Part shown: positions 42,832 to 44,894 of the stretch, piece after piece | How the letters are laid out: the number at the start of each line of letters is the position of its first letter | Numbering within the stretch: position 1 is the stretch's first letter | Assembly: GCA_902529795.1 (NCBI GenBank) | Contig: CABZXY010000004.1 | Span: 1-53,820, forward strand | DNA from: an uncultured Alphaproteobacteria bacterium | GTDB lineage: Bacteria; Pseudomonadota; Alphaproteobacteria; HIMB59 | Length of the DNA: 53,820 nt | Direction of reading: 5' to 3' | The notes under the pieces: model-generated | What the model was told of the DNA's origin: nothing | What the model saw: the letters and a program-made list of their open reading frames with translations, nothing else | The model's database searches: none | Position numbers and translations under genes: made by a program

Positions 42832-43974
42832 ATGACATCAAATTCACTAAAGAAACCAGAAAGATCTCTTCCTTTTCATTGGTATTATAACCCCAAGGTT
42901 TTTCAAAAAGAAATTGATAAAATTTTTAATGATGAGTGGATTTATGTTTGCCATGTTAATTCAATTGAAAAAAATCATTATAGAACACTTAATATTAATA
43001 ATAAAAATATTGTTTTAGTTAAAAGTAAGTCTGAAAATATTTCTGTATTTTATAACACCTGCCTACATCGTGGATCTCAAATTTTTGAGGACCAAGAAGG
43101 AAAAATGAAATCTCCTGTTATTATATGTCCATATCATCAGTGGTCCTACGATGCCATTAGTGGATCCTTAATAAATACAACATCTATTAAATTAAATAAC
43201 TTTGATAAAAAAAATTATAACCTTCAAAAAGTTAATTTTCATATCTGGAAGGGTTTAGTTTTCATTAATCTTAAATCGAACAAGAAATTTAAGATTCAAT
43301 CTATATTCCAATACTACGATAAAACAGTTGAAAAAATTGATTTAGAAAATTATGCAGTTGGTCATATTTGGAAAAAGAAAGTTCAATGTAATTGGAAAAT
43401 TTATTGGGAGAATTATAGTGAGTGTTTACATTGTCCAAACATTCACCCAGAATTATCTGAATTAGTTCCTCTCTATCAAAGAAGACTTGTAGATATACAA
43501 GATCATCCGGAATGGGAAATTCTAAAAAAAACTGAATCACATACAAAATATCATGGTGGATTAAAAAATGGTGCACAAACTTGGTCTTCAGATGGCACTT
43601 CACAAGGCCATACAATTGAGGAGGTCCAATCTGAGTTGGAGTCAAGAGGGCAGGTGTATATTTCAACATGGCCTACAATGTTTCTAGGGATATATGGGGA
43701 CCATATTCGAATAGTAAGGCTTATTCCCATTAATTCTGAAGAGGTAGAGTTAACCGCAGAGTGGTTATTTCCAGAGTCAACTCTAGCTGATCGTGATTAT
43801 AAAATGAGTAACGTGGTGGATTTTGGAATATTAGTTATGAACCAAGATGCGCGGATATCTGAGGTTAATCAACGAGGTGTTTACAATTTAGGAGAGTCTT
43901 CCGGGGTTCTAATGCCTGAAGAGTACATAATTAAAAATTTTCATAAATATATTAAAAATAAAATTAAAATTTAA
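42832..43974 (+). CDS. Rieske non-heme iron oxygenase, alpha subunit
   Basis: The enzyme hydroxylates or demethylates a small substrate using a Rieske cluster and a mononuclear iron. The Rieske ligands are C77 and H79 (CLHRG), then C99 and H102 (CPYHQW). The catalytic site has NYSECLHCPNIHPEL with H200 and H205, and a later aspartate in MNQDARISE near residue 334. The 380-residue length and overall pattern resemble betaine/carnitine-type (GbcA/CntA) oxygenases. No reductase gene lies beside it. The natural substrate is unknown. Confidence 0.85.
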   Translation: MTSNSLKKPERSLPFHWYYNPKVFQKEIDKIFNDEWIYVCHVNSIEKNHYRTLNINNKNIVLVKSKSENISVFYNTCLHRGSQIFEDQEGKMKSPVIICPYHQWSYDAISGSLINTTSIKLNNFDKKNYNLQKVNFHIWKGLVFINLKSNKKFKIQSIFQYYDKTVEKIDLENYAVGHIWKKKVQCNWKIYWENYSECLHCPNIHPELSELVPLYQRRLVDIQDHPEWEILKKTESHTKYHGGLKNGAQTWSSDGTSQGHTIEEVQSELESRGQVYISTWPTMFLGIYGDHIRIVRLIPINSEEVELTAEWLFPESTLADRDYKMSNVVDFGILVMNQDARISEVNQRGVYNLGESSGVLMPEEYIIKNFHKYIKNKIKI

Positions 43975-44018
43975 AAGAATGGCTTACCAAAGTTATGGAC
44001 AATGGTAAGTCCATTCTT
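43975..44018 (-). terminator. Strong hairpin with U-rich tail on the minus strand
   Basis: Read on the minus strand the long H1 stem ends in CCATTCTT and runs into TTTTAAATTTTAATTTT. This looks like an intrinsic terminator for a minus-strand transcript, either the 44215 gene's 3-prime region or a separate small RNA. Confidence 0.5.
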
Positions 44019-44048
44019 TGTATACACATCTTGGCTGGTGCCAAGATA

Positions 44049-44074
44049 TCCTCTTATAGAAAGAGGAAATTTTT
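44049..44074 (+). terminator. Possible terminator after the Rieske gene
   Basis: TCCTCTT and AAGAGGA form a 7-bp stem with a five-base loop, followed by AATTTTT. It fits an intrinsic terminator for plus-strand transcription coming from the Rieske gene. Confidence 0.45.
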
Positions 44075-44090
44075 GTAAAGTTACGTTATG

Positions 44091-44117
44091 TTAACTTAAC
44101 AACTTTGGTGGCGTCAT
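44091..44117 (-). CDS. Possible 8-codon leader peptide
   Basis: On the minus strand GGAGG (44126-44130) lies eight bases before ATG 44117. The frame reads MTPPKLLS and stops at 44091. It lies within the structured region. Nothing proves translation, and the chance of an SD next to a short ORF is not negligible. Strong SD sites are rare here, however. Confidence 0.2.
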   Translation of the reverse strand: MTPPKLLS

Positions 44118-44214
44118 CTTTGTAACCTCCGACCTTATACCTATCCTTATAGGTAATTTAAGGATACCAAAAAAAAGTAAAAAGAAAACTATTAAAAAAA
44201 AATATTGTGGAAAA

Positions 44215-44796
44215 TTAACTTGGGCAATTTTCTATTTCCCAAAATTTATTTACTTTAGGCATTATTAAGGGAAGTTTTGCAATGACCAAGGGCCCAAATT
44301 TTTCAATATCTCCTGTAGCTAAAACATACTTACCTTGATTATCGATATTGAAAACTCTAATTAAATACTCTCCTGCTTTATAAACATTCGTGCTTTTAAA
44401 TTCAGCCCCATACTCTGGACCTATCCAATAAAACTTTTTACCATATGGCTCATACCACTCCCACCATTCATGATTATTGCCATCTAATTCAAATAAAGTT
44501 TCTTGCATTCCATTAGAGACATTTATTACATCAACAGAAAATTTATCAAAAGAATCACAGCCATTAATTTTTGGTGTGGTAATACCAACATAAAAGTTAA
44601 AGTCTATTTCTGACTTAATTGTATAGTAATGTGCATCACCCTCTAAAGTTCCATATATAGCTTTTGATATTTCTGGTTTTTCAATTAAATAAGCGTTATC
44701 AGGAGAGTTGGTGTTTTCTTCATTCAAAGCAGGTTGGTGAGAAGATGCATTGAATATTGGGAGAGCAATTAATAAGAATAGATATAAATATTTCAT
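44215..44796 (-). CDS. Exported protein of unknown function
   Basis: I do not recognise this gene. From ATG 44796 the protein has 193 residues, with a signal peptide (MKYLYLFLLIALPIFNASS). An in-frame ATG at 44817 would add seven residues. The mature part begins with an acidic NEENTNSPDNAYLIEKP stretch. It then looks beta-rich, with aromatic-rich segments around WWEWYEPYGKKFYWIG near residue 104. The pattern GTLEGDAHYYTI recalls beta-sandwich domains of secreted proteins. Two cysteines, one near the C-terminus, could pair. Its 3-prime end faces the structured region. Confidence 0.65.
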   Translation of the reverse strand: MKYLYLFLLIALPIFNASSHQPALNEENTNSPDNAYLIEKPEISKAIYGTLEGDAHYYTIKSEIDFNFYVGITTPKINGCDSFDKFSVDVINVSNGMQETLFELDGNNHEWWEWYEPYGKKFYWIGPEYGAEFKSTNVYKAGEYLIRVFNIDNQGKYVLATGDIEKFGPLVIAKLPLIMPKVNKFWEIENCPS

Positions 44797-44872
44797 ACTA
44801 TTTTTACTTTTATTCAACTCTGATGGATTGACGTATCTGAGGCGATAAGGGTCTTTGAAAAGTCAATATTTT

Positions 44873-44881
44873 TGCTATAAA
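44873..44881 (+). promoter_or_regulatory. Possible extended -10 promoter of the pcm-like operon
   Basis: TGCTATAAA (TGn plus TATAAA) lies 13 bases before the ATG at 44895. TTGAAA at 44855-44860 could act as a -35 with a short 15-base spacer. Confidence 0.4.
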
Positions 44882-44894
44882 TCAAAATCTAATC

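Follow-up and report, generated by a model that had tools for sequence, protein, structure and literature searches.

Small, intergenic RNAs of the NfeR1/ar14 type in Alphaproteobacteria carry an anti-Shine-Dalgarno CCUCC sequence. Non-coding DNA is scarce in streamlined ocean bacteria, and neither Hfq nor CsrA was found in the genomes searched here, which raises the question of their post-transcriptional regulation. Bacterial minigenes or mini-ORFs, like the two-codon axe-txe minigene, act through ribosome occupancy in cis, as leaders of downstream genes, and the toxicity of their over-expression is linked to peptidyl-tRNA release (PMC8708949). The short RNA rnTrpL of Sinorhizobium meliloti derives from the trp attenuator and its small ORF codes for peTrpL, a peptide described to act in trans (PMC7298713). 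An RNA sponge is described in Caulobacter (PMC12559287), and candidate structured RNAs of Ca. Pelagibacter ubique, among which the rpsB and ffh motifs, are reported mostly upstream of genes (PMC2704228).

The window, the whole stretch of 53,820 nucleotides that was analysed, comes from a genome of the HIMB59 genus (AEGEAN-169, 'SAR11 subclade V'), a clade with two cultured strains, HIMB59 and LSUCC0245 (PMC10308909). The gap at 43975-44214 separates a Rieske oxygenase gene from a convergent protein gene without Pfam match (Table 1). An initial annotation of the DNA placed five strong stems there and recognised no RNA family. All the stems and motifs are present at their coordinates. Folding of 221 nt gives minimum free energies (MFE) of -65.6 kcal/mol on the plus strand, where shuffles average -39.0 (z -6.1), and of -67.2 kcal/mol on the minus strand (z -6.7); none of 200 shuffles is equally stable on either strand. 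Rfam 15 covariance models run over the window find only tRNAs elsewhere and nothing at gathering score at the locus, where permissive matches are noise. The region is a composite in which a conserved minus-strand RNA core is mixed with ordinary terminator hairpins. The main find, the 58-nt core, lies partly outside the stems first named, and by comparison of related genomes the locus does hold something undescribed and conserved, as had been proposed.

Table 1. Features of the intergenic region and its neighbouring genes (window coordinates).
Feature	Position	Strand	Description
Rieske/ring-hydroxylating oxygenase alpha subunit	42832..43974	plus	convergent gene; Pfam PF00355 and PF00848
H1	43974-44019	minus	16 pairs, one bulge; U-rich tail follows on the minus strand
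ACCAAAGTT	43986-43994		motif, plus letters
H2	44028-44047 (entry 44027..44048)		perfect 8 bp, AUCUUGGC/GCCAAGAU
H3	44049-44067 (with AAUUUUU tail 44049..44074)	plus	perfect 7 bp
H4	44074..44101	minus	hairpin after the mini-ORF, AAGUUA/UAACUU core
AAAGTT	44077-44082		motif, plus letters
Mini-ORF MTPPKLLS*	44091..44117	minus	putative Met-x-Pro-Pro-Lys frame
Conserved RNA core	44101..44158	minus	58 nt; one strong copy in each genome with the core
AACTTTGGT	44101-44109		motif, plus letters
Shine-Dalgarno GGAGG	44126..44130	minus	7-8 nt before the invariant ATG; from alignments
CCTCC	44126-44130		motif, plus letters
5' hairpin UACCUA/UAGGUA	44138..44155	minus	loop with AAGG (GAGGA loop in clade I); from MFE and alignment
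Extended -10-like element	44161..44169	minus	TGGTATCCT in the window; position kept in all clades
Convergent protein gene	44215..44817	minus	upstream of the RNA; no Pfam match

Conservation in related genomes, which the initial annotation had put forward as a check, is found: a covariance model of the core gives strong matches (E below 1e-13) in 33 of the 52 genomes that represent the genus. Most of these genomes are single-cell or MAG assemblies, and some absences may be due to gaps in them. The sister family gives only weak matches (best E 0.1). A tighter model run on 385 genomes sampled from the class also gives only weak ones outside the genus, in 17 genomes (E 2e-5 to 0.05); these are judged to be chance, the core of Shine-Dalgarno, ATG and Pro-Pro-Lys codons not being intact in their best 10 alignments. 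Among the genomes searched, sequence matches thus confine the core to the HIMB59 genus. Searched at its full 241 bp, the region has matches in two relatives (88%, and 83% over 200 bases); the shorter core has many more and is 93-100% identical within clade II. Its borders are sharp. Between clades Ia and Ib, identity rises from 0.45-0.56 upstream to 0.70-1.0 in the stretch that extends from the -35 region to CCAAAGT, and beyond it is 0.25-0.44, conservation dropping from about 0.9 to about 0.3 directly after CCACCAAAGT. Loci L001 and L010 are 93% identical in the core, while their neighbouring PCMT proteins are 66% identical and third codon positions 50%. Repeats of the region in its own genome are limited to short A/T-rich matches, the viral contigs searched have no match, and no second copy of the translation start, a possible source, is found within 3 mismatches, trivial 3-mismatch matches excepted. 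Weak second matches to the core in genomes G016, G019 and G121 were discarded because they lie within protein-coding frames or border on them.

The core keeps a constant position in the loci inspected, upstream of the PCMT-valS gene pair. It is independent of gene context, the RNA staying while the flanking genes change: it neighbours the Rieske gene in clade II and a different oxygenase-like gene in clade I, and the gene at 44215 is present in clades II and Ia and absent in Ib. The swapped neighbour is a 399-aa oxygenase-like protein in loci L011-L029 versus the Rieske oxygenase in L001, L009 and L010, with PCMT and valS unchanged. The 44215-44817 gene, which codes for a protein of about 200 aa with a signal-like N-terminus followed by HQPxxN, occurs in 5 of 18 genomes searched, all of clades II and Ia. 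Six clade Ib genomes retain the RNA and have no detectable 44215 gene, which is therefore not needed for it; identity of the element as primarily the 3' UTR of that gene was rejected on the same ground. On the minus strand the sequence downstream of the RNA is the 3' end of the convergent plus-strand gene in those loci of clades I and II that were inspected; a riboswitch, cis leader or attenuator was discarded since no gene lies downstream on that strand. Further along, at 44834-44885, upstream of the PCMT-like gene, the block TCTGAGGCGAT(TATGAT)CTTTGAAAA...TATAAATC is found in several loci of the genus, including RNA-less ones; it resembles a promoter of PCMT-valS to which a further conserved half has been added upstream.

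The element is dispensable, because it is absent from three genomes and decayed in G031. The three genomes, of another lineage, were inspected at their PCMT locus, where the Rieske and PCMT genes adjoin. Their neighbours in the PCMT tree are clade Ib loci in which the element is weakened (GGAGG changed to TGAGG; stop lost in G031), which suggests decay followed by loss in that lineage, on branches that are poorly supported. The G031 copy (L121, 1721-1830) looks decayed: its frame, MEPPKNYLKNTT*, has lost the usual stop, the 5' stem is shifted to AACC/GGUU and the Shine-Dalgarno sequence is only GAGG.

Read on the minus strand, the region presents in order a promoter-like block, the 5' hairpin, GGAGG, a spacer and ATG. 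The -10-like element is TGGTAACAT in HIMB59 and TGATAAGAT, TGATAAAAT or TGATAATAT in clade I; the pattern across clades is TGnTAnnnT, clear in clade I. Within clade I, conservation sets in about 35 nt before the 5' hairpin; comparison of two gene contexts there gives 70-96% conservation for the stretch from about -60 (AATACAAAA) to this hairpin and 45-56% for the sequence immediately before it. Clades I and II share an identity of only about 0.5 in the -10 stretch. A scan with the sigma-70 consensus makes no promoter call at the -10-like site, and the -35 is weak. The -35/-10-like block, of the kind by which an independent sRNA gene would have its own promoter, is conserved in clade I and weak in the window. 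The pairs of the 5' hairpin are kept in nearly all genomes.

Between GAGG (counted with T) and the ATG lies a spacer of 8 nt. GGAGG is reduced to GAGG in L023, L027-L029 and L121, GAGG remaining after mutation. With an alphaproteobacterial-type 16S 3' end, taken from general knowledge, the GGAGG forms give duplexes of -10.7 to -12.5 kcal/mol, and GGAGG-N4-9-ATG is expected by chance in 57 nt with a frequency of 0.2-1%. GGAGG is partly paired with GCCACC of the ORF (unpaired probability of GAGG 0.2-0.5) and the ATG is mostly open in the clade I fold. The frames tallied in 26 distinct loci are MKPPK* (19, clade I), MTPPKLLS* (3, including the window), MKPPKYIS*, MKPPKSKS*, MEPPK* and the G031 form, 5-8 codons long and 12 in one genome. 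A TAA or TAG stop comes immediately after PPK in 20 of the 26 loci; between Ia and most of Ib its form differs, yet it remains a stop. Codon 2 varies in amino acid. The ATG and CCA-CCA-AAG are invariant, silent sites included, in these loci, which were gathered by a pattern fixing those bases; the covariance-model matches of the 33 genomes, in which the bases are not required, bring no new variant in the loci inspected. Same-residue codons of PCMT are identical at only 52-65% between these clades. Since CCA-CCA-AAG stays unchanged even silently while PCMT codons drift, the constraint is at least partly on the RNA. The sequence traits of a minigene or mini-ORF RNA are found together: proper Shine-Dalgarno spacing, AUG, a very short ORF and conservation.

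The best reading of these data is a free-standing small RNA made of a strong translation start and a mini-ORF of 5-8 codons, which would work by ribosome engagement and/or by pairing. An independent minus-strand RNA, one of the options of the initial annotation, is favoured by the conserved promoter-like flank and by GGAGG before an invariant ATG. We privilege, at about even chances of being right, the hypothesis of a stand-alone minigene-type RNA that loads ribosomes, whose transcription, start site, translation and function we infer from the DNA. Transcription from its own promoter would begin at about 44158 and proceed along the minus strand towards a point near 43960, giving an RNA of about 90-200 nt depending on the lineage. 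A short 5' hairpin would expose an AGG-containing (usually AGGA) loop, and GGAGG with AUG would be presented for a Met-x-Pro-Pro-Lys mini-ORF, on which a 30S or 70S ribosome would be loaded and perhaps slowed by Pro-Pro-Lys. Partial pairing of GGAGG with GCCACC could tune access. In the window's clade the RNA would end at the long hairpin H1. Ribosome loading is proposed because the conserved block has about the size of an initiation footprint (about 40 nt before and 16 nt after the AUG). If true, a regulator of this design, an RNA conserved genus-wide and centred on a ribosome-binding site with a frame of five codons and no gene after it, would be out of the ordinary.

The main rival is also a minus-strand regulatory RNA, one that would act by base pairing or protein binding, GGAGG and AUG forming part of a pairing or sponge sequence (soaking up, for example, C/U-rich anti-Shine-Dalgarno-type RNAs) and the mini-ORF being incidental. 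Three purine-rich Shine-Dalgarno-like motifs within 35 nt (the GAGGA/AAGGA loop, an AAGG linker and GGAGG) speak for it, as do the three CCA-CCA-AAG wobble positions that never vary, hinting at constraint at the RNA rather than the peptide level, and the precedent of the sponge described in Caulobacter. It does not account for the ideal spacing to the ATG, the retention of GAGG and ATG in mutated sites or the stop kept after PPK in two forms, and no second site closely like the core is found in the genomes searched. Two possible protein partners were looked for in the hosts: CsrA was found in none of five genomes searched (E. coli, B. subtilis and T. maritima controls positive), and neither was Hfq (four of the five at 92-99% completeness; Caulobacter and other controls positive). 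The RNA has GGA motifs, a feature of the CsrB/RsmZ type, but with neither protein detected in these five genomes a CsrA sponge of that type and an Hfq-dependent sRNA are both unlikely. We regard the pairing or sponge RNA as possible but somewhat unlikely.

Transcription of the opposite strand would either extend the Rieske mRNA by a conserved 3' UTR or yield an sRNA rich in C and U, whose CCUCC and UCCUC loop would block ribosome-binding sites. The plus strand also folds strongly, its CCTCC is partly unpaired, the Rieske stop codon is immediately followed by H1-H3, and H1 adjoins Rieske genes wherever it is present. The core, though, remains where the Rieske gene is replaced, and the plus reading has no conserved promoter-like stretch at its 5' side, where conservation stops abruptly at ACTTTGG, and no U-run after its 3' hairpin; Hfq is not found in the five genomes. 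CCTCC, likened by the initial annotation to anti-Shine-Dalgarno loops, is the complement of the minus-strand GGAGG 7 nt before the invariant ATG, and the promoter-like flank is on the minus strand too. Single changes that give G-U pairs favour the minus strand in three of four cases, which is weak evidence (in L025 an A to G change in the 5' hairpin makes G-U on the minus strand and A-C on the plus). The conservation profile, the GGAGG-ATG arrangement and these changes lead us to prefer the minus strand, which is quite probably the functional one; a plus-strand RNA seems to us rather improbable.

The hairpins beside the core have different origins. H1 is 96-100% identical, loop included, in five related genomes of clade II, the only ones in which a search across the genus finds it, and the comparisons of H1-H4 rest on these five sequences. 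Its minus-strand tail is U-rich in all five and is the clearest such tail of the region, towards 43960, suggesting that H1, the last stem of a minus transcript, is probably the terminator-like 3' end of the minus RNA. In the most distant member, L010, identity of H2 and H3 falls to 50-62% (H2 62%) with pairing kept. Compensatory changes occur in both, two H2 pairs of L010 covarying from G-C to A-U and from C-G to U-A. The covariation looked for is present in H2 and H3 only; the core hardly varies and shows minimal covariation. H3 and its T run are an ordinary intrinsic terminator of the plus-strand Rieske gene: the stem is called by a terminator scan and kept through sequence change, and the stretch has two plus-strand terminator-like sites against 0.2 expected in shuffles. 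H4 is conserved in the five clade II genomes and unrelated hairpins take its place in clade I. In L014, L020 and L021 uncompensated changes break the 3' hairpin of clade Ia, which leaves the 3' end uncertain in that clade. That ordinary terminators and hairpins at the ends of the two convergent genes make up the whole region, the fallback of the initial annotation, is true of one stem in five at the least (H3, a textbook plus terminator) and is in line with the U-rich tail of H1 and with H2 and H3 keeping structure over sequence. As a full account it is very unlikely and disfavoured by the conservation profile, leaving unexplained the near identity of H1 down to its loop and a core that is conserved in sequence in three gene contexts and lies for the most part outside strong hairpins.

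A mutually exclusive switch had also been proposed between these elements. The pairings exist on paper: AACUUUGGU in H1 is a 9-nt complement of ACCAAAGUU in the core, and a core-H1 complement of this length arises by shuffling in 17 of 2000 cases. Folded on the minus strand, the RNA loses 6 kcal/mol when H1 pairs with the core (-58.8 versus -64.8) and 2.8 kcal/mol in the local alternative (-62.0). Eight clade I loci, checked for ACTTTGG downstream of the core, do not have it there, and no H1 is found in the rest of the genus, so the switch is confined to the window's clade, as a clade-specific addition at most. The most complete version of the ribosome-loading hypothesis, a stand-alone minigene riboregulator that would capture ribosomes on Met-x-Pro-Pro-Lys and, in the window's clade, free the Shine-Dalgarno sequence by AACUUUGGU/ACCAAAGUU pairing, in hosts apparently without Hfq and CsrA, is rather improbable as a whole.

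Among known systems, the NfeR1/ar14 type shares with the locus a small size, an intergenic position and CCUCC on one strand; here the evidence favours the opposite strand, Rfam gives no match and Hfq was not found in five genomes. Like the candidates of Ca. Pelagibacter ubique, the core is a conserved intergenic RNA candidate of a streamlined marine alphaproteobacterium; it differs from the motifs described in PMC2704228, which lie mostly upstream of genes, and no sequence related to it was found outside the HIMB59 genus in the genomes searched. The rnTrpL RNA, as described in PMC7298713, is likewise a short alphaproteobacterial RNA with a small ORF; the present one is unrelated to it in sequence and has neither an attenuator nor trp codons. 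Minigenes resemble the present RNA in their Shine-Dalgarno sequence and very short ORF and, should the proposed mechanism hold, in acting through ribosome occupancy (PMC8708949). They differ in that no gene follows here on the minus strand, the ORF has 5-8 codons, or 12, and the whole initiation region is conserved throughout the genus.
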